DNA of 38,242 nt from contig QKMY01000055.1 in assembly GCA_003242895.1 (NCBI GenBank), forward strand, positions 1 to 38,242. The letters are read 5' to 3'. Position 1 is the stretch's first letter. Each line of letters begins with the position of its first letter. Shown here piece by piece: positions 101 to 33,211 of this stretch. The stretch is from Candidatus Margulisiibacteriota bacterium (lineage in GTDB: Bacteria > Margulisbacteria > Riflemargulisbacteria > GWF2-39-127). The translations under genes were made by a program, and so were the position numbers. Under the pieces are notes generated by a model. That model saw only the letters and a program-made list of their open reading frames with translations, was not told the DNA's origin and did no database searches.

Positions 101-266
101 GTAGGCATAGGGTTCCTTGCAATTTATCTTGTTTTGTTGTAATAACAGGAGTTATTCACATTTGTCAATATTTTATTATTCTAACAATAATTAATTGTGT
201 TTACAAAGTTTTTTTAGATTATACCACAGTCCCTATGACATAATTTGTCAGTTTACAATAATGAAT

Positions 267-758
267 TTAATTTAATACGTTTACCGCCCTGCTCAAATCT
301 TCCATCCTAATATGAGCGTATACTTGTGTTGTCTGTACGGATGCATGACCGAGTAATTCCTTTACAGCATAGATATTCACATCAAGTTGCACGAGCTTAC
401 TGGCGAAGGTATGCCTGAGCATATGTACCGTTCCTTTCATGCCGATACGTTTCATCTCTCTGGTAAAGGCGTGATAAAAATCACTAAATGGTTCACCTGA
501 CTGATCACCTTCAAACACATACACTTGGCCTCGCTTTGCCTTGCGTTTCAGGGAAAGCAAATGCTTATATAGCGTATCATTAATCGGTACGGCTCTGAAT
601 TTATGGGACTTTGACAGTTCTACTACCACGATACGATTCTTAAAATCCACATGATCCCATTTAAGGCGCTGCAATTCACCGGATCGAATTCCTGTATGAA
701 GCAGCACCTTAACGAAATCTCTCACAAATGACCTTGTTTTGGTTAAAATATCTTTCAT
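267..758 (-). pseudogene. Tyrosine recombinase, catalytic domain, N-terminally truncated
   Basis: This encodes the C-terminal catalytic half of a XerC/D-like phage integrase family recombinase. The catalytic signature is complete: the first arginine in HTGIRSGELQRL, HMLRHTFAS (H-x-x-R), LLGHASV, and the tyrosine nucleophile in TTQVYAH. The N-terminal SAM-like core-binding domain is absent. Family-like sequence continues eight codons upstream of the first ATG (PRFYTDEQ, to about 782) and then runs into the end of the neighbouring recombinase copy in another frame. The ATG at 758 is therefore probably not a native start. Full-length relatives are about 300 residues, against 163 here. It could still give a catalytic-domain fragment, but I read it as one half of a collapsed tandem duplication. 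Confidence 0.8.
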
Positions 759-1318
759 TTGTTCATCCGTATAGAAACGAGGCGGTGTCCTAGCAGCTCT
801 TTAACGAAATATATATTTACACTTCGCTGTACCAGTTTGCTTGCAAAAGTATGCCGGAGCATATGGAGCGTGCCCTTAATCCCGATCCGTTTAAGTTCTC
901 TGCTGAAGGCATGAGAGAGGTCACTATACTGGGTTCCTGGCTCACTTCTCGAAAAGATATATATCTGCCCCTTCTTTGCCTTACTTTTGAGGCATAGCAG
1001 GTGCTTATGTAGCGTATCATTGATCGGTATTGCCCAGAATTTATGTGACTTTGATAGCTCAATCATTAGGGTACGGTTTTTAACGTCGATATTAGTCCAC
1101 TGTAGTCGCTGGAGTTCTCCAGCTCTCAACCCTGTATGTATTAGCACGACAACAAAGTCCCTCACAAATTGTCTTACTTGAGTTAGGATAGTATGAAGCT
1201 GTTCATCCGAAAAAAAAGAAAACCCTGATTTTGATATTCTGAAGAGCGGTTTTGAAGCAAAATTAGATAAATATATATCCGTTGATGGATTGATTGTTTC
1301 AGTCGAATCAAAATGCAA
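755..1318 (-). pseudogene. Tyrosine recombinase fragment lacking the catalytic tyrosine
   Basis: This is a second, diverged copy of the adjacent recombinase. It keeps SDEQL, HTGLRAGELQRL and HMLRHTFAS, and ends its homology at KELLGH, after which the reading frame leaves the family (RLVSIRMNK and stop). The last 25 or so residues, including the nucleophilic tyrosine, are missing, so it cannot be active. Family similarity begins only near position 1215; the first 30 or so codons are antisense to an unrelated plus-strand fragment. The two copies overlap by 4 nt and meet at about 783-790, where the lost 3' end of this copy is joined to the lost 5' end of the next. That is what a deletion between tandem recombinase genes would leave. 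Confidence 0.8.
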
Positions 1319-1550
1319 AATAGCTATTAGTGATTTTCTATACTGGCAAATGGCTCACCCAACCAAAAATTTTACTATAACTATAAGATATCCAGAAACG
1401 ATGACAATTCGGCATAAACCTTTTGTTCTTCACAATAAAATGTGCATTCCCCTTGAGGCACCCGGTTACTTAAGACTTACATATGATTCTTGGATGCTTC
1501 CGATGAGAGGTATGGCTTGGGAATTTGATAAAAGATCAATGAATGATTAG
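1197..1550 (+). pseudogene. C-terminal stump of an unknown protein, cut by recombinase DNA
   Basis: The plus strand is open from the stop at 1194 to the stop at 1548-1550. From about 1218 it reads like real protein: NPDFDILKSGFEAKLDKYIS, then a hydrophobic/aromatic tail with IRYPETMTIRHKPFVLHNK and SWMLPMRGMAWEF. There is no good start codon with a ribosome site; the only candidate is a TTG at 1290. On its 5' side the sequence turns directly into antisense of the recombinase fragment. I infer that it is the 3' end of a gene whose 5' part was lost when the recombinase DNA arrived. I do not recognise the family. Confidence 0.45.
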
Positions 1551-6926: not shown

Positions 6927-7205
6927 AAAACGCCTCCTCAATAATATAATGTTCGCATTATACTCTCGAAAATGAATTATGAATATCTTCCTTGTTTGTT
7001 TTCACAGCAGGATTCTTGTATATCTCAACGATCATCACGTTAATGTGGGTTTAAAGACTATTTATAGATAAAAGAAAACATAGTAATCCGCTTCTTTTTA
7101 TTTATAGCGCTATTGCTTTAATAGAAGCTATTCAGTTAATTTATATTATTACTCGAATCGTAGAGCCGGTTTTTCAGATTTGAGGTGAGTTGCACGATAC
7201 GTATA

Positions 7206-9656
7206 TCATGAGTTTTTAAAGTTATTTACAACCTGAGAAAGTGTCATTGCCATTGAATCAAGATCCTGTGCCTGATCTTTAAGTTGCTCAATAGAAGCCG
7301 TCATTTCTTCGGTCGAAGCAGATACTTCCTCGGTAATCGCGGAATTAGATTCTGATACCTTAGCAAGATTACCTATACTATCATAAATACGCTGATACTT
7401 TTCCTTTATCTCCTCGGTCGATGATTGGTTTGTTTGGGCAACGATATGAACGTTAATTATCAGCTCAACAACATTTTGTGATAATTGAGATAATGCCTTT
7501 ATTTTTTTAGATGTTTGATCAATTATTCCAGCAATAACATCAACAGAAGCTACTACCTCTGAACTCGAAGCCGACATTTCATCTGCAGCTGCAGAGATGT
7601 TTTGAATCTGGTTAACCGTATTATTAACAGCCTTAATAATATTTGTTAATGCATCTTTTGCTTGCATTGCCAGGATCACACCAGTTTGAACCTCTTTAGT
7701 TCCGGCTTTCATGGATTCAACCGTGTCGTTTGTCTCGTTTTGGATCTGCTTTATTAAATTTGCAATTTCCTTTGTTGCGTTTCCTGATCGTTCTGCAAGC
7801 TTACGGACTTCGTTGGCAACAACAGCAAACCCTCTTCCGTGCTCACCGGCACGGGCAGCTTCAATCGCAGCGTTAAGCGCAAGCAGGTTAGTCTGTTCGG
7901 CAATATCATCGATTACTTCAATAATTTCTCCGATATGCAAAGAGTTTTTTCCAAGTTCTTCGATTTTTTGAGCAGTAGCCAGAACCGTATCTTTTATTCT
8001 GATCATACCATCTACGGTATTCGCAACAATTGCTTCGCCTTGTTTACCGATTTCCGACGTTTCAATAGAGGTTTGCGAAGCATTATTCGCTTCAATGGTT
8101 ACCTGATCAATTGCGTGCGCCATATGATTAATTATCATTTTTACATGGTCTACTTCCAAAGTTTCTTTCTTTGCTGCCTCGAATAGATCACTAATTCCGG
8201 CATCACTTTCAAGTACGTCTTCTGCAGTTTTCGACATACTAAGTACTTGTTCTTCGGAACCAGCCGCAACTCTATCGATAATATCTTTGATTTCATTAAT
8301 TTCTAAGGTTATTTCCTTTATGTTTTCAACCTGTTGACTAGACCCCTCAGCCACAGAATTAATTGCCGAGGCTATTTGACCTACGATTCCTGTGCTTTCT
8401 TTTGATGATCGAGCAAGTATACTGACACTTTCAAGTACGCTGGTTGTTGCCTTTTCAACACCATTAACGATACTATCAAGTGCTCGCATCATAAACATAG
8501 CTGATTCGGCGATCTCACCAATTTCGTCGTCATTCTTTATTTCCAGGGTTGCTATATCACTCCTGTTTCTCAAAGCCAGCGCCAAACTAGGCAGCGATTT
8601 TGTAATCGAAGTGACAATATAATATATAATTCCTAAAATTATTATTAGGCTTATAAATGTGAATACTAGAAATGTTTGTTGTATGCTGGATATTTTGTCT
8701 ATAAAAGGTTTTTCTAGTGTACCGACAGACAATATCCCAATAGTATTGTTATTAATGTCGTAGATTGGATCATACGCAGTAATATACCAGTCTTCTACTA
8801 CAAATGCTCGGGACCTGATTTTTTCTCCGCCGATAAAGACCTTATCATAAACTTTTTTTGATACCCTTGTTCCTACTGCCCGTGCGCCACCGTCTTGCTT
8901 AACATTCGTGGCGATTCGAAGATCTTCCATACATATGGTAGAGTTGCCCAGGTCCACGGAGTTTCCTTTTTTGTCAGTATATTTTTGATTAAGTACATTC
9001 TCTTTAGTTCTGTCGACAATTGAAAAATTTCTATTCATTAATTTGCCAGCGAGAATTATTTTATCATTAACTGGGTAAGCGACAACTTGGACCATACCTC
9101 GGTCATCAAACTTATTGCTTTTTTCTGTTTCATCAGGGGTTTTAATAAAGTCAAAATATGCTTGTTTAGCTAGGGCACTATGCTCTATTCGTAATTCGCT
9201 AGCATCCATAAGTATTTCACCGGATACCTTTTTTCCCGTTTTGATTACTTTTTGGATAGCCATATTTTTAGATAAACTATTGCCGGTTGATATATTAGGA
9301 GCTGAGGCGGGCCCGCTATTTCTGTATATTACCTTTCCTTCCCAATTTGTTATAACAAGAATATCGACATTGGAATTCTTTTTCAGCATATCAACAATAT
9401 TTTCATCAAAAGGATCAGTCTTAATGATATAAAGTATGTTTTTAATCTGAATATCCATATCCTGCCGATTATTATATAACACTTCCCATGCGACATTTAT
9501 ATCGGAATTTATTTTTTCCTGTCCCAAGAGCATGGTTTCTTTTTTTACTTTCGCAGTTACAACAAAATAAGAAACTGTCATACCTAGAAGATATACAATA
9601 AATATTGGGACAATAATTCTGTTGATAATTCTTTTCTTGCTTTTGTCTTTTTTCAT
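7206..9656 (-). CDS. Methyl-accepting chemotaxis protein with large Cache sensor
   Basis: An 816-residue transmembrane chemoreceptor. TM1 is about 12-34 and is followed by a periplasmic domain of some 290 residues, of the Cache_3-Cache_2 fusion type (for example [18 protein letters not shown], then [16 protein letters not shown] and [20 protein letters not shown]). TM2 is about 328-350. A HAMP-like segment follows, then the cytoplasmic signalling coiled coil. The CheA/CheW-binding hairpin tip is at about 588-622 ([31 protein letters not shown]). The start has AGAGGT upstream of the ATG. It is transcribed alone on the minus strand. Cache domains of this type usually bind small organic acids or similar metabolites; the ligand here is unknown. 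Confidence 0.93.
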
Positions 9657-9874
9657 TGCTTACCTCTGCGTAATTACTCTCAATGAGGTTTACGCCGTAC
9701 ATATTTCCATCATTTCAATTATAACAATAATTTTATTGATTTCATATCAACGTCCTATTTTAGGTTTTTGTTTTTTGATGGGGAAAATAAAAAAGCAATC
9801 GGAGAAGCGCACTTGTAGGTATTGCTTCTGGTGATTACAAGATATTTCTGGCAACAACGATTAAGCTATTATCT

Positions 9875-10051
9875 TTATTCGGAATATCTGCCACGCTGAC
9901 GACCCAGACAAGACTGAGAATCCTTGTCGTCTTCTTCTCGCTGGATACTGTCACTCTTGCAATTCGGGCATGAATACGGGTCATGAAACCCTGAATCTTC
10001 AGACCACTTGCTGTTACACTTCGAACAAACAAAATCTCTCATTCCATTCAT
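9875..10051 (-). CDS. Zinc-ribbon miniprotein, 58 residues
   Basis: This small gene reads MNGMRDFVCSKC, then SWSxx-type sequence and SCPNCKSDSIQREED, ending RGRYSE. Two CxxC knuckles (C9/C12 and C28/C31) form an FmdB- or rubredoxin-like zinc ribbon, followed by a charged tail. AGGGAG sits six bases upstream of the ATG at 10051. A different frame over the same DNA is open longer but has no recognisable content. The downstream sequence (about 9835-9788, minus) has AGCAAT and ATTGCT arms followed by T6, which may be its terminator. Such ribbons often bind nucleic acid or protein partners; no specific role can be inferred. Confidence 0.7.
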   Translation of the reverse strand: MNGMRDFVCSKCNSKWSEDSGFHDPYSCPNCKSDSIQREEDDKDSQSCLGRQRGRYSE

Positions 10052-10242
10052 AAAAAACTCCCTGATTTTTTTTCTCAGTAAGATGATCTCACATTAAAAA
10101 AATAAATACGGGGATATTCTAACACGCGACTTCGCTTCTAGTCATCGGGGGAAATAGTCATTTGGTATTTGGCACGTTTATGTGTATTATTTGACATCCG
10201 ACAGGTGATTATTAGAGATAATACCCGTATCAACGGGTTAGT
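10052..10242. other. Spacer with small hairpin
   Basis: No gene was found here. ACCCGT, loop ATCA, ACGGGT (10223-10238) forms a short hairpin immediately before the hemerythrin remnant. Its role is unknown. Confidence 0.35.
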
Positions 10243-11329: not shown

Positions 11330-11603
11330 ATAACATCTTCCATCAGGGCATAATAGATTAATTTATCACCTTTCATTGTAAACATATGGCTATCATAGGT
11401 AAAGCACTTATTAGTCTGATAGCAAAAGGATTTTAGATACAAGACAGGTACCCGCACAGGGTTTTGTAATTGTCATATATATACAACACGGCACCCCCTA
11501 ATCTTGCCCGTTTGGTCTTGAGGAAAACAACTATGGTATAATTATGACTTCTATCAAGCAAGTTTCTTTTAAGATTATATTACTAATAAATAGGGAGTTT
11601 ATT

Positions 11604-12467
11604 ATGAAAAGCGGAAAAAATAGATTACTTGGCGCGCACATGTCGGTAAGCGGCGGCTGTGACAAAAGTATCGATCGAGGAGTTTCCATTGGATGTACGG
11701 CAATTCAGATTTTTACCGGATTTAATAACCGGTGGCAATCAAAAGCTATATCAAGCGATATCCTCTCCGCTTTTGATCAGAAAAGATCTAAGGTAGATAT
11801 AGTTTTTGCACATAACAATTACCTGGTTAACTTAGCATCTCCTGATCCGGTCATTGCTTCGAAATCCTTTGCATCTATGCTTGATGAAGTGGCGAGAGCC
11901 GGACAATTGTCATTACCCTATTTAATCATTCATCCTGGGGCACACATGGGCGCGGGAGAGAAACGCGGCGTACACCTTGTTGCCCAACGCCTTAATGAAC
12001 TTATCGATCAAACAAACGATTCTGATGTCCGAATATTGCTGGAAACTACCTCCGGACAAGGAACGGTTCTTGGTTCTACGTTTGAACATTTAGCTGAAAT
12101 AATAGCGAACATCAAGGATCAAAAGAGGATCGGTATTTGTTTTGATACTTGTCATGTCTTTACTTCCGGTTACGATATCCGTACGCCGGAAGCCTATGAA
12201 AAGACTTTCAGCGAGTTTGACCGGATTGCCGGATTAGATTATCTAAAAGTTTTTCATTTGAATGATTCAAAACATGATATCGGAACAAAAAAGGACCGGC
12301 ATGAACACATTGGAGACGGCTATCTGGGCTTAAGTTCCTTCGAATTATTGCTGAATGACTATCGATTCTTTAGTGTGCCGATGGTGCTTGAAACACCAAA
12401 GTCCGATTTTAATCTCCTAGAAGAAGACAAGAAAAATCTGGCGGTGTTACGAGCTCTCATCAAATAA
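11604..12467 (+). CDS. nfo: Endonuclease IV (AP endonuclease)
   Basis: Endonuclease IV cuts DNA 5' to abasic sites and removes 3' blocking groups in base excision repair. The protein is 287 residues, the normal length. All three-zinc-site signatures are visible: LGAHMSVSGG, IHPGAHMGAG, LLETTSGQG, CFDTCHVFTSG, VFHLNDSK, KDRHEHIGDG and LETPK. The reading frame opens at 11544, but the ATG at 11604 is chosen because GGGAG lies six bases upstream and the family begins there. It is a single-gene unit with a weak terminator at 12453-12482. A second, diverged endonuclease IV-like barrel occurs at 25775. Confidence 0.95.
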   Translation: MKSGKNRLLGAHMSVSGGCDKSIDRGVSIGCTAIQIFTGFNNRWQSKAISSDILSAFDQKRSKVDIVFAHNNYLVNLASPDPVIASKSFASMLDEVARAGQLSLPYLIIHPGAHMGAGEKRGVHLVAQRLNELIDQTNDSDVRILLETTSGQGTVLGSTFEHLAEIIANIKDQKRIGICFDTCHVFTSGYDIRTPEAYEKTFSEFDRIAGLDYLKVFHLNDSKHDIGTKKDRHEHIGDGYLGLSSFELLLNDYRFFSVPMVLETPKSDFNLLEEDKKNLAVLRALIK

Positions 12468-23894: not shown

Positions 23895-24329
23895 TTTTAT
23901 AACCTCCTCTTTTTTAATGCTTAACTACAAAATGATATTAAAAGGATAACATTTCTGCTTCTGCATTGCAATATGCGAATATAGCGTTTTAGTCGGAAGA
24001 AAAGAATCTGAATCTTTATTAAAGGGCGGCTCGGTTGTTAATCTATGCGGCACATCAGATTATGCACATTTTAGCATAAAAATCTTTTCATAGTCATCGG
24101 GCGAAAAACACCCAATTCCTGAATGCCTCCTTTTACGATTACAAAAAGCTTCAATATATTCAAAGATACTTTGTCTTGCCTGCACACCCTTATATGAAAG
24201 AGAACTCTTCTTGATTAACTGAATTTAATTACGGCTTTCACATCTTAAAAACCCGGGTGTTTATGTAATTCCCTATCTGTGATACAAGACTCATCAAGCT
24301 AGAATTAAGCTTACGGCAAGACACGTACA
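23895..24329. other. Intergenic region containing insertion-sequence debris
   Basis: There is no intact gene in 435 bases. It should contain the promoter of the ferredoxin operon on the left. The middle holds an IS3-family transposase remnant (24060-24210). Nothing further was recognised between 24210 and the primase gene. Confidence 0.6.
24060..24210 (-). mobile_element. IS3-family transposase C-terminal remnant
   Basis: On the minus strand this reads QARQSIFEYIEAFCNRKRRH, then SGIGCFSPDDYEK and a stop at 24060-24062. This is the C-terminal end of the IS3/IS150-group OrfB integrase (ARQSIFEYIE..YN..RRHS.LGY.SP..F), including the family's R-R-H-S block. The rest of the transposase is missing and no terminal inverted repeats were found. 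It records an old insertion directly upstream of the primase operon. Confidence 0.75.
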
Positions 24330-25778
24330 ATGGTAATAGTTATTCAACCTGGAAATGAGACTATGGAAGAAAAAAAAAATATAAAATCGTCGGGGTATTA
24401 TAGAAATAAAAAAATTCGTGACCGAATGGTAGAGTTTCTCGGGGGAACAACTTTGAGCACTAGTTCCGCTGTTTATATAACCAGATGCGATATTCCGGCT
24501 TCTGATCAATATGAGAAAAGACCTCCAGTGGACCTTGATTTCTATTTGAATAATGGCTTGGATATATGCCGGTCTTTGTGGGATAGAGACTCTCTAATCA
24601 TAGACCTTGATATCGAGTACGTTAATTACGATTTTCCGGCAGAAGCTTACCTGGACCCTATAAGGACCTTTTCTCTGCAACACCCTGTACATAATGCCGT
24701 AGAGGAAATCTTGCTTCAATATAATATAATTGCACTCAATTTATTAAGTGGCCGAGGCCATCATTTCACCTGGAGAATTAAAAAAAAGTCACAAGCTTTT
24801 GACTTGCTAAAAAATATAGGGCGGGTATCTCAAGATCTGCTTAATTATTATAAAAGCAACCGTGGCCCTGAAGGTGAAGAAGTTGATGTATCCTTGGGAA
24901 AAGCTTTTTCTGGTATTGCCCTGGTTATGGAATACGTTGCTCATCTAATAAAACGCAAAGCCGGTCCGTTATCTAAGCTTCCTCTAGAGCTTGCTGCTGT
25001 TGAAGTTACTCCTCAAGAACGAGGGCGAGAAATGATTTCTATAGATATAACCGAATACGGAGACCCATTAACTACCAGAATGATCCGGCTGCCGTTCAGT
25101 GTATACCTAAAACCCTGGTACAAATACGGTATCTTGAATGAAAGTACGCGAGGCAATATGCCATTTATTTTTATGATACCGAGAAACAATTTGGAAATAA
25201 ACCACGCTATCCGGATAATGAGAGACGAAAAAAAAGCAGCCTCCCTTGCTATAACTTCTGCTGTAAGGATTCCCGACCAGTCCGATTTTATGTCAGCGCT
25301 TATTGCGGAGTACCAACAATCCGATTTAGCTGATTTCCATACCCGCTTTTACTCTCTGGAACACCATCATCCTGAAACGTGGCCAAATACTTATGATAGG
25401 CTTTCTATGAAAGATCTACCGCCGTGTATTCAATATATTCTGATGCACCCGAATGACCTTTTGCAAAAACCTGGAGGTATCAGGCTTGTTGTCCGATCTC
25501 TTCTGGCGCTTGACTGGCATCCCCGGCATATTGCCGGATTAATCAGGTCAAAATATGAGCGTGATTATGGCTGGGGCCATCACTGGTATACCTATGATGC
25601 TTCATTACGCGCTGATTTTTATGTGAGAGTTTTTGCCGGACAGATTGAGGTCGGCTTAGATAATTTAAACGATTTTAATTGTACGTCAACCAAAGGAATG
25701 CATTATTGTTTCGATAATAATCAATCCTGCACGCTCGACACATTAAGAGCAAATTTGTTAAAAAGGAAAAAATCATGA
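24330..25778 (+). CDS. AEP-family primase/polymerase with PriL-like cysteine domain
   Basis: A 482-residue protein (471 if the ATG at 24363, with GGAAATGAG upstream, is used) with archaeo-eukaryotic primase superfamily motifs. Motif I is LIIDLDIEY (Asp92, Asp94), motif II is LSGRGHHFTW (His144/145) and motif III is SIDITEYGD (Asp239), followed by TRMIRLPFSVYLK, the typical AEP 'RlPfS' nucleotide-binding strand. The C-terminal 120 residues start DLPPCIQYIL (Cys366) and end with Cys451, Cys460 and Cys467. Four spaced cysteines after 'LPPCI' resemble the iron-sulfur domain of the primase large subunit PriL. It would be expected to synthesise primers or fill gaps. Its stop overlaps the next ATG (ATGA), so it is translationally coupled to an endonuclease IV-like protein. 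Confidence 0.8.
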   Translation: MVIVIQPGNETMEEKKNIKSSGYYRNKKIRDRMVEFLGGTTLSTSSAVYITRCDIPASDQYEKRPPVDLDFYLNNGLDICRSLWDRDSLIIDLDIEYVNYDFPAEAYLDPIRTFSLQHPVHNAVEEILLQYNIIALNLLSGRGHHFTWRIKKKSQAFDLLKNIGRVSQDLLNYYKSNRGPEGEEVDVSLGKAFSGIALVMEYVAHLIKRKAGPLSKLPLELAAVEVTPQERGREMISIDITEYGDPLTTRMIRLPFSVYLKPWYKYGILNESTRGNMPFIFMIPRNNLEINHAIRIMRDEKKAASLAITSAVRIPDQSDFMSALIAEYQQSDLADFHTRFYSLEHHHPETWPNTYDRLSMKDLPPCIQYILMHPNDLLQKPGGIRLVVRSLLALDWHPRHIAGLIRSKYERDYGWGHHWYTYDASLRADFYVRVFAGQIEVGLDNLNDFNCTSTKGMHYCFDNNQSCTLDTLRANLLKRKKS

Positions 25779-26614
25779 ATGATTGGAATATCGGTATTTC
25801 AACCGGCTGCTTTTACCAGATAAGCATTTTTGATTGCCTGGAAGATATAAGAAATGCCGGGTTCTGTACTATTGAAATAAGTTCTTCTCCCAGCCATCTT
25901 GATTATCATAATAAAGAAGCTGTAAAACAGGCAAAAGCAAAAATGGCAGAATTAGGAATCGAGCCGTATTCTTTTCATGCCCCTTTCGGAGCTGATATCG
26001 ATATAACGTCCCTTGATGAAAAAGTGCGGGACAATTCGTACCAGGAATTACTCAATGCTGCGGACGCTGCCGTCTTAATAGGAGTCAGGTATTTGGTAAT
26101 ACATCCCGGGCCGGAAAAGCCTCACAACCCTTCAGACCAGGACCATATGCAGAGATTGGAAAATGCGGGAAAAGTCCTTAACAAAGTTGCATCTTTTTGT
26201 AAGGACCATAAGATCGACCTTGTTTTAGAGAATGTATTACCTCACCTGATATTTGGAAATATGAGAGATATGCTCTGGATCCTGGGATCGATTAATACCA
26301 CAAACGTAGGAACCTGCATGGATACGGGGCATGCTGCATTATCTGGCGATATAGATATAATAACCTACAAAATCTCAGGCTATTTAAGATATATCCATGC
26401 CCATGATAATAAAGGAAAATATGATGATCATTTACCTCCGGGATCGGGAACGATAGATTGGCACAAGTTGCTTCTATCGTTAACAAGGACAGCATTTCGA
26501 GGTAGCATAATTCTGGAATTAGCTGGTAATCAGCAAAGAAGGAACGACGAGGTCCTCAGCGATGCCCGCCAAAGTAGATTATTCTTAAGAAATCTATCAA
26601 AATTGCAAACTTAG
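25775..26614 (+). CDS. Endonuclease IV-like TIM-barrel protein coupled to the primase
   Basis: A 279-residue xylose isomerase-like/AP endonuclease 2-family TIM barrel. Residues in the positions of all nine zinc ligands of endonuclease IV can be seen: His68 (SFHAPFG), His110 (IHPGPE), Glu152 (LENV), Asp183 and His186 (MDTGH), His208 (IHAHDN), Asp217 and His219 (DDHLPPGSG), Glu248 (ILELAG). The family also contains sugar-phosphate isomerases, so fold alone does not prove nuclease activity. The four-base overlap with the primase gene argues for DNA processing. GGAAAAAATC precedes the ATG. Its 3' end overlaps the convergent CapA gene by 18 bases. Confidence 0.82.
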   Translation: MNDWNIGISTGCFYQISIFDCLEDIRNAGFCTIEISSSPSHLDYHNKEAVKQAKAKMAELGIEPYSFHAPFGADIDITSLDEKVRDNSYQELLNAADAAVLIGVRYLVIHPGPEKPHNPSDQDHMQRLENAGKVLNKVASFCKDHKIDLVLENVLPHLIFGNMRDMLWILGSINTTNVGTCMDTGHAALSGDIDIITYKISGYLRYIHAHDNKGKYDDHLPPGSGTIDWHKLLLSLTRTAFRGSIILELAGNQQRRNDEVLSDARQSRLFLRNLSKLQT

Positions 26615-27793
26615 AGAATTATCTGAATTTAATGCGACCGAAGTTCCAAACTTCTTTCCTTCCTGGTTCAGAGTATTGATTAACCACTCGGCGGCTACTC
26701 TTGAGGCACGATTAACTCTAAAATATTTAATCAGTGTCGGTGTCATCCGAAGCTGACAAAGGTTGCCGGTCTGTGAATCAATGCTTGCAAAATACATAAG
26801 CCCCAGATCACCACGAAATAGTTCATAACCAGTAATTCCCTCATAGTCATTCAAAAAGTCACCACACCCATAGAGAATTAACTTGTGGTTGTATACTTCA
26901 ATTCCCTTAACATGATGAGAAGAATGTCCGTGAATAATATCAATACCGGCGTGATCAATAAGCCTGTGAGCAAATTCTCTTTGATCCGCCGGAACCTCAT
27001 ACCCCCAGTTTCCACCCCAATGAATTGAGGCAACCACCACATCGTTTGGTTGTTTCACCTTTCCTACCTTTTCTTTTATAAACTCTATAGTTTCAACCGA
27101 AAAATCCGGGATTAGGTTTATTCCAGGCAGAGCTTCACTGGCAATCCAGCTATTAGGAATGCCACTCGTGCCCGACCCAAAAGAGAAGACAATGAGTCGT
27201 CCTTTTTCTGAATACTCCATTATCGCAGGAGACTGTGCCTCTTTACTGTTCCGCCCTGCTCCGGCATGTTTAAGCTGAGCTTTATCTAAAACATCCAAGG
27301 TCTCAGTAAGCCCCGCATATCCCCAATCAAGAACATGATTATTCGCAAGAGAACAATAATCTATCTTAGCTTCCGTGAAGCACGGAACATTCCTGGGATT
27401 CATCCTATAGTTTATACCCTTGCTTTTCAGGTAATCATTGCTCGTCGTTATACTCGTTTCTAAATTAATAATGCGAAAATCAGGGTTAATCCGTTCGAGT
27501 TCTTCAAGAACATCTCCCCAGATATAAGAAAAATCAACCTTGCGGGGAAACGGGTCTTGCCCCTGTTCTGCAAGCTCTATATATCCCCTGGCATCCTTTA
27601 GGTAAGCTTCATGGATAATCGGATCGCTGGGATAAGGCAGTACCTGATCAATGCCTCTGCCAGTCATAACATCACCACAGAAAAATAGAGAAATTAATCT
27701 GGCATTCCTGAATAAAAATGCTCCTTGGTGCATAGTCTTTTCCCAATTATAATTGCTTATGCCGCTAACGTTCTTGAAATATATGCAGCCCAT
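26597..27793 (-). CDS. CapA-family (PgsA-like) metallophosphatase-fold protein
   Basis: A protein of up to 398 residues of the CapA/poly-gamma-glutamate synthesis family, which has a calcineurin-like metallophosphatase fold. Conserved blocks are SLFFCGDVMTGRGID, INLETSITTS, LANNHVLDWG, VVASIHWGGNWGYE and IIHGHSSHHVKGIE. Some members take part in polyglutamate capsule export; many stand alone with unknown substrate. No capsule genes adjoin it. The start is uncertain: ATG at 27793, or ATG at 27733 (20 codons later), closer to the conserved domain. Neither has a strong ribosome site. There is no signal peptide on the shorter form. Confidence 0.88.
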   Translation of the reverse strand: MGCIYFKNVSGISNYNWEKTMHQGAFLFRNARLISLFFCGDVMTGRGIDQVLPYPSDPIIHEAYLKDARGYIELAEQGQDPFPRKVDFSYIWGDVLEELERINPDFRIINLETSITTSNDYLKSKGINYRMNPRNVPCFTEAKIDYCSLANNHVLDWGYAGLTETLDVLDKAQLKHAGAGRNSKEAQSPAIMEYSEKGRLIVFSFGSGTSGIPNSWIASEALPGINLIPDFSVETIEFIKEKVGKVKQPNDVVVASIHWGGNWGYEVPADQREFAHRLIDHAGIDIIHGHSSHHVKGIEVYNHKLILYGCGDFLNDYEGITGYELFRGDLGLMYFASIDSQTGNLCQLRMTPTLIKYFRVNRASRVAAEWLINTLNQEGKKFGTSVALNSDNSLSLQF

Positions 27794-31825: not shown

Positions 31826-33211
31826 ATGAAGTTTATCGCGGACTTTCACATTCATTCGCATTATTCATTAGCCACCAGTAAAAAGCTGATCCCGGAGTAC
31901 CTCGATTACTGGGCAAAACTAAAAGGGATCCAGGTCATGGGCACAGGAGACTGTGTTCACCCCGGCTGGCTGCGCGAACTAAAGGAAAAACTCGCTATAG
32001 CTGGGAACGGACTCTATCAGCTCAAAAAAGAATATCAACTCAGCCCGGCAAATACCCCCGACTGCATAACCATGCCAGGAACTGTCCACTTCTTGCCAAC
32101 AACAGAAATAAGTAATATCTACAAAAAAAACGGAAAAGTCCGCAAAGTCCACAATCTCTGCGTATTCCCCGACTTTGCTTCAGTTGAGAAATTTCAGGTC
32201 CGCCTGGAAAAAATCGGCAATATCAGGTCCGATGGCCGGCCGATTCTCGGCCTTGATTCGAGAGACCTGTTAGAAATACTACTGGAATCGTCATCCAATG
32301 CCTTTCTAATACCGGCTCATATCTGGACGCCCTGGTTTTCGGTACTAGGCTCAAAATCGGGATTTGATACAATCGAGGAATGTTACGGCGATCTTACGCC
32401 GCACATTTTTGCACTGGAAACAGGGCTTTCAAGTGACCCGGCAATGAACTGGACATGCAGCTTTCTCGACACGTTCAGACTAGTTTCCAACTCTGATGCC
32501 CATTCCCCCGAAAAGCTCGGACGCGAAGCCAATATTTTTGATACGGAACTCTCCTATCAAGCCATTTATGATGCTCTCAAGTACAATCGGGGATTTCTCG
32601 GCACTATCGAATTCTTTCCTCAAGAAGGCAAATACCATTACGATGGACATCGCAATTGCAATATCTGCTGGGACCCCTTAGAAACCATCAAGCATGCTGA
32701 TCTCTGCCCGGTATGTCTTAAACCGGTAACCAAAGGCGTCTTGTACCGGGTAGCCGAGCTTGCCGACCGAAATGATATAACAACTGCGCCCTGCAAAAAA
32801 GATTTTTATTCCATAACCTCGCTCCCAGACATCATTGCCGAATTAGAGAACAAGAAAACCACAACAAAACGTGTCCGGGAAAAATATTTTGAGGTTCTTA
32901 AGAACATCGGACCTGATTTCCATACGCTGCTCTTTGCGCAGGAATCTCAAATCCGCGAATCCGGCGGCGAATTGCTGGCTGAAAGCATTATGCGGATGCG
33001 CCGGGGTCAGATTTATATCGAAGAAGGCTTTGACGGCGAATTTGGAAGGATCACCATGTTCAAAAAAGGTGAACTATCCGGCATTTCCAGCCATTCCCTT
33101 GTAGCCGGGCAGGATAACGCGTTGACCGCTCCGCCCTCCTTCAAAGGCTCGATTCGATTCGATATTGACCAGTTCCAGGCGCAATGCCGCCTCAAGCCCA
33201 CAATTACTTAA
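31826..33211 (+). CDS. Endonuclease Q-like PHP-domain protein (TIGR00375 family)
   Basis: A 461-residue protein. The N-terminal PHP metal-binding fold shows ADFHIHSHYSLATSK (His8, His10), GTGDCVHPGW (Asp42, His45), Glu94, His109, PAHIWTP (His165) and SNSDAHSPEKLG (Asp224). A zinc ribbon follows at about 278-297 (CNIC...CPVC), then a helical C-terminal part. This arrangement is that of TIGR00375 proteins, which include archaeal and Bacillus endonuclease Q. EndoQ nicks DNA 5' to deaminated bases and abasic sites. The assignment is by domain order; activity is inferred. The start has GAAAGAAG upstream. It is monocistronic. Confidence 0.85.
   Translation: MKFIADFHIHSHYSLATSKKLIPEYLDYWAKLKGIQVMGTGDCVHPGWLRELKEKLAIAGNGLYQLKKEYQLSPANTPDCITMPGTVHFLPTTEISNIYKKNGKVRKVHNLCVFPDFASVEKFQVRLEKIGNIRSDGRPILGLDSRDLLEILLESSSNAFLIPAHIWTPWFSVLGSKSGFDTIEECYGDLTPHIFALETGLSSDPAMNWTCSFLDTFRLVSNSDAHSPEKLGREANIFDTELSYQAIYDALKYNRGFLGTIEFFPQEGKYHYDGHRNCNICWDPLETIKHADLCPVCLKPVTKGVLYRVAELADRNDITTAPCKKDFYSITSLPDIIAELENKKTTTKRVREKYFEVLKNIGPDFHTLLFAQESQIRESGGELLAESIMRMRRGQIYIEEGFDGEFGRITMFKKGELSGISSHSLVAGQDNALTAPPSFKGSIRFDIDQFQAQCRLKPTIT

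Follow-up and report, generated by a model that had tools for sequence, protein, structure and literature searches.

A pair of overlapping genes in the window, the term used here for the whole 38,242-nucleotide stretch of DNA that was analyzed, is proposed to specify an obligate coupled module in which a primase-polymerase of a new archaeo-eukaryotic primase (AEP) family and a tri-metal phosphoesterase act successively on DNA, a reading to which we assign a probability of roughly 0.5. The first gene (24330 to 25778, plus strand) encodes an AEP-like primase/polymerase of 482 amino acids, here termed protein 1, as judged from its open reading frame and motif conservation. The second (25775 to 26614, plus strand) encodes protein 2, a 279-amino-acid TIM barrel of the AP_endonuc_2 (xylose isomerase-like) type. 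The four-base stop/start overlap described in the earlier note is present as ATGA in the ORF calls of the window, and translation of the two genes is probably coupled. The annotated start of protein 1 may lie 33 bp too far upstream because its homologues start near M12, two to three residues ahead of a conserved YY, and the in-frame ATG at 24363 may represent the true start. A PGA_cap gene (26597 to 27793, minus strand) converges on the barrel gene, overlapping its 3′ end by 18 bp.

The earlier note had set beforehand that a lack of pairing in other genomes would speak against its reading. Among 48 unique homologues of protein 1, of which 44 are close, the barrel gene was located next downstream and on the same strand in all 44 close homologues. 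The AEP and barrel genes overlap by 4 bp in most of these close homologues and elsewhere by 8 or 59 bp, with gaps present in a few. Homologues of protein 1 are present in MAGs labeled Fibrobacter and Verrucomicrobia (10 of 168 and 10 of 388 genomes of the phyla so labeled, respectively), as well as in 44 of 190 genomes of one order. In the 168-genome search, in which barrels of the family scored above 460 bits and the next best barrel reached 70 bits, AEP and barrel occurred in the identical 10 carrier genomes, with no orphans. The barrel was furthermore present in 43 of the 44 AEP-carrying genomes of the single order, the sole AEP without it being a fragment at a contig end. The pair is obligate in these two phyla and in that of the window, i.e., in three bacterial phyla in all. 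Pairwise identities of AEP and barrel are correlated (r = 0.93 over 19 pairs), a value which shared descent of the hosts alone could yield. Three distant relatives of the AEP (23 to 24% identity), encoded at positions 7103 to 8509 (plus strand) and 8846 to 10174 (minus strand) of locus L034 and at positions 157 to 1470 (minus strand) of locus L035, are accompanied by no barrel and lack the C-terminal cysteines discussed below; the two copies in L034 are convergent and lie 0.3 kb apart. At a further locus (L033, 7726 to 10108, plus strand), an AEP homologue is followed by a partial barrel in an overlapping frame, which looks like a degenerate pair left by a deletion or frameshift, and one genome (G141) has the complete pair twice, on separate contigs (L028 and L029).

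Within the phylum of the window, protein 1 was found in 1 of 74 genomes, namely, that of the window itself, and horizontal acquisition of the pair is therefore likely there. Just upstream of the pair (24070 to 24226, minus strand) lies the remnant of a transposase C terminus (...EYIEAFCNRKRRHSGIGCFSPDDYEKIF), which we take to be of the IS3 type and which is compatible with acquisition by transfer. Searches of phage records, plasmid records and viral contigs returned no homologue of protein 1, and a mobile-element origin of the pair was rejected on this basis.

Protein 1 is very probably an AEP, as indicated by the conservation of its predicted catalytic residues. The motifs that define these enzymes are hDhD/E (motif I), s..H (motif II) and hD (motif III) (PMC5862659), and the invariant residues of the 48 homologues coincide with them: D94, E96, G143, H145, D239, R250, P255 and K261 are identical in 48 of 48 sequences. 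Motif I had been described as DLD, and these letters are indeed present at residues 92 to 94; residue 92 is, however, a histidine in 40 of the 48 homologues, and DLD is therefore the wrong register, the metal ligands being D94 and E96 of a conserved DxE (codons D94-I-E96 at 24609 to 24617, plus strand). The SGRGHH of motif II is present as described at residues 140 to 145 (24747 to 24764, plus strand) and takes the form [ST]G(R/Q)GHH in most homologues. The motif III aspartate at position 239 and the IRLPFS at residues 252 to 257 were likewise recovered; both lie in a block (D239 ... R250-x2-R253-x-P255-x5-K261; 25044 to 25112, plus strand) of which D239, R250, P255 and K261 are invariant. The spacing of the R..R.P.....K portion is the same as in the PriS proteins of Pyrococcus and Sulfolobus, human PRIM1 having H..K. 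Protein 1 thus shares with PriS (PRIM1), the small primase subunit and a member of the AEP proper clade, motif I as hDhD/E, motif II as SGRG(x)H, motif III as hD and an equally spaced R/H..R/K.P.....K, but differs from it in having DxE instead of DxD, in being bacterial, in carrying a helical C-terminal domain fused within the same chain and in having a barrel partner.

The AEP assignment rests on motif conservation because other comparisons returned little. No significant match to protein 1 was found in Pfam, NCBIfam, PHROGs, PADLOC or the PDB, PriS sequences included, and when PRIM1, PRIM2, archaeal PriS and PolpTN2 were compared with it by HMM and hhalign, significance was not reached, a result limited by the shallow templates. 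The AlphaFold model, built from three sequences, has a mean pLDDT of 44.6. The catalytic motif set supports the claim of an AEP made in the earlier note, while the fold prediction is too poor to speak for or against it. These same shortcomings could be taken to mean that protein 1 is not an AEP, with a different fold and a merely convergent motif match. However, seven invariant residues across 48 divergent homologues follow the order and spacing of the AEP motifs, and an ordered AEP-type pattern, composed after the family had been seen, matched two known PriS proteins (PRIM1 among them) and 45 of the 48 members but 0 of 280 other ORFs and only 7 of 72,000 shuffled sequences. We consider such convergence very unlikely.

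Foldseek searches with this poor model gave weak matches in which nucleotide cyclases were mixed with a CAPP Prim-Pol (E value of 0.2). The presence of cyclases among the top matches, together with the obligate pairing of a synthetase-like with a phosphodiesterase-like protein, would suit a nucleotide signaling module in which protein 1 makes, by means of its palm-like core, a nucleotide product that the barrel, as a phosphodiesterase, degrades or uses, for example in a stress response or phage defense. The PriS-type motif II and the R..R.P.....K block nevertheless fit an AEP and not a cyclase. PADLOC returned no defense-model match above noise (the best E value, 0.006, occurred in one barrel), and no effector or defense gene is conserved beside the pair across the homologous loci, so that a signaling function appears distinctly improbable.

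The C-terminal region of protein 1 contains the four cysteines that had been reported, at positions 366 (in LPPC), 451, 460 and 467 (25425 to 25730, plus strand), as a candidate Fe-S or zinc site. Their conservation, which the earlier note had proposed to check, extends to 40 of the 44 close homologues as the pattern LPxC followed some 84 residues on by C-x8-C-x4-10-C; the cysteines are absent in two members (L025 and L027) and incomplete in a third (L045), and a fourth sequence (L073) is truncated. This region thus likely contains a metal or Fe-S site, where the cysteines may hold a cluster, and since some members lack them, such a site is not essential to the protein 1 family. The region had been named a PriL-like domain, but homology to PriL was not detected by profile comparison: PF04104 (PriL) matched 2 of 19 members with a best E value of 0.055, and hhalign of the C-terminal region against PriL-type sequences was weak, with shallow templates. 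The PF04104 match in one member (L039) spans residues 283 to 357, ahead of the cysteine region, and was rejected as evidence for PriL. The likeness to PriL lies in the position of the region and in the context of its first cysteine (FPPC in PRIM2, PKCIQ in PolpTN2) and is, on present sequence comparisons, a resemblance in pattern only.

Fusion of primase and Fe-S functions in one polypeptide had been put forward as new, yet precedents exist both for PriS-PriL-type fusions and for a cysteine-bearing PriCT domain in bacterial AEPs. PolpTN2, encoded by the Thermococcus plasmid pTN2, is a fusion of PriS- and PriL-like parts (PMC3973330, PMC5862659) and, like protein 1, places a PriL-like region with four cysteines after the AEP within a single chain, with a similar first-cysteine context (KCIQEFL, versus PCIQYIL in protein 1). 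It differs from protein 1 in the spacing of its cysteines (C-x5-C-x8-C versus C-x8-C-x6-C), in the replacement of its motif II histidine by glutamine (PMC5862659), in its length of 917+ amino acids with extra domains and in being plasmid borne with no reported barrel partner. Bacterial CRISPR-associated Prim-Pols (CAPP) similarly combine an AEP with a C-terminal PriCT-like domain harboring conserved cysteines (PMC8211822), but also possess a TPR domain and cas1/cas2 neighbors, neither of which was seen for protein 1.

Protein 2 matches Pfam PF01261 (AP_endonuc_2) with an E value of 3e-38, and its predicted structure (pLDDT of 87.6) is a barrel. All nine endonuclease IV zinc-ligand positions noted previously are present (H68, H110, E152, D183, H186, H208, D217, H219 and E248), with no substitution at any of them in 19 homologues; the metals bound are probably three zinc ions. 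These ligands favor the view that the barrel is an AP endonuclease and that the pair is a packaged unit for incising abasic sites and resynthesizing the DNA, its primase being fused to a 4Fe-4S PriL domain, as do the four cysteines retained in 40 of 44 close homologues and the precedent of Prim-PolC with EndoIV (PMC5663958). Alignment with canonical endonuclease IV (Nfo) shows, however, that the barrel family lacks the DNA-recognition segments of that enzyme (the NQRRW loop, the TAGQG loop and the AGYDIRT insertion). Moreover, protein 2 scores 34 bits against TIGR00587 (Nfo), for which the cut-off is 129.65 bits, and the paired barrels of other genomes score 27 to 42 bits. A canonical endonuclease IV (289.5 bits against TIGR00587) is encoded separately in the window at 11544 to 12467 (plus strand), some 12 kb upstream of the pair. 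Such an enzyme accompanies the pair in 11 of 23 genomes, including 10 of the 10 pair-carrying genomes of the Fibrobacter-labeled phylum; it was not found in the 12 Verrucomicrobia-labeled pair carriers searched. Because the recognition loops are missing, the score falls below the cut-off and a true endonuclease IV coexists with the barrel, the term tri-metal phosphoesterase is justified and AP endonuclease is not. Membership in the endonuclease IV family, as put forward in the earlier note, is therefore not supported, ketose 3-epimerases and MJ1311 being structurally nearest to the barrel, and the PriL part of the same proposal suffers from the undetected homology described above. We regard this version of the module as unlikely. 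The barrel is instead, by sequence tests, a tri-metal phosphoesterase candidate outside the endonuclease IV family and in a separate group that shares with Nfo the TIM barrel and metal-ligand set; it could still work like endonuclease IV.

The solved protein nearest to protein 2 in sequence is MJ1311 (103 bits, versus approximately 42 bits for endonuclease IV entries), and the nearest in fold are ketose 3-epimerases (TM of ~0.84) and, again, MJ1311. The latter (PDB 3wqo) is an uncharacterized barrel which retains the ligand set and has a target-normalized TM of 0.88, but is archaeal and approximately 25% identical to the bacterial barrel. The best NCBIfam match is CbiR (49 bits; cut-off, 105), a cobamide phosphodiesterase and thus likewise a hydrolase of the AP_endonuc_2 superfamily; no cobamide genes were seen near the pair. 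Such matches, along with the metabolic genes that neighbor the pair in some genomes, might indicate a metabolic function, with the barrel acting as a sugar or sugar-phosphate isomerase/epimerase or as a cofactor phosphodiesterase in the manner of CbiR, and protein 1 as a small-molecule nucleotidyltransferase. Against this, the ketose 3-epimerase 8yeb lacks equivalents of H68, H110 and the D217-x-H219 pair, all of which the barrel family keeps invariant, and a ketose 3-epimerase-type metal site was rejected for the barrel on account of these extra ligands. AEPs are, in addition, nucleic-acid enzymes. A metabolic role accordingly appears highly improbable.

The constant side-by-side occurrence of the two genes in three phyla therefore points to a two-protein nucleic-acid-processing system, which is probably undescribed and probably serves DNA repair. 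In the proposed coupled module, protein 1 would provide a DxE active site and, in the position of PriL or PriCT, a C-terminal domain that bears cysteines in most members, and would be expected to polymerize; protein 2 would act on nucleic acid. The barrel would cut a phosphodiester or remove a blocked 3′ end (3′-phosphate, phosphoglycolate or similar), thus leaving a 3′-OH from which the AEP would extend or fill, or the AEP would re-prime past the lesion, with final sealing presumably performed by a host ligase. We infer the template, the lesion and the order of action in this scheme. Incision and resynthesis would thereby be packaged as one unit, for which a biochemical precedent exists by analogy: mycobacterial Prim-PolC and LigC bind base excision repair enzymes, and gap repair is most efficient with EndoIV (PMC5663958). 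Prim-PolC/LigC and LigD thus resemble the present pair in that an AEP acts with repair nucleases, endonuclease IV included, during gap repair (PMC5663958), but the AEP described here has no conserved ligase or Ku neighbor and is instead partnered by a barrel gene in every close homologue.

The probability of roughly 0.5 given to the module already counts against it the lack of a match for protein 1, its poor model, the non-repair neighbors, the epimerase-like barrel and the coexisting endonuclease IV. More tentatively, the pair may form a bacterial system in its own right, separate from known base excision repair and NHEJ: members of a new cysteine-cluster AEP family and of a new tri-metal nuclease/phosphoesterase family, strictly interdependent, would jointly cut or clean a specific lesion or nucleic-acid end and resynthesize across it. 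No description of an obligate AEP and tri-metal barrel pair was found in the literature searched, which is not proof of novelty. Bacterial priming is performed by DnaG, and most bacterial AEPs hence belong to mobile elements, to NHEJ or to CRISPR loci. That a chromosomal AEP has a single obligate partner enzyme in three phyla suggests a pathway of two enzymes, small enough for reconstitution in vitro, and the strict pairing makes the question of substrate directly testable. The barrel, for its part, brings an uncharacterized tri-metal group into a superfamily in which proteins can easily be mistaken for sugar epimerases or for endonuclease IV.

A wider conserved operon was sought around the pair and none was found: the barrel gene is the only gene conserved beside the AEP across phyla, other neighbors being common to close relatives only, and none of these shared neighbors is a repair gene. 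Within the window, a 461-amino-acid protein (31826 to 33211, plus strand) matches TIGR00375 with an E value of 4e-39, below the cut-off, and displays a weak PHP_C match together with a zinc-ribbon-like segment; we take it to be possibly an endonuclease Q-like (EndoQ) repair nuclease.
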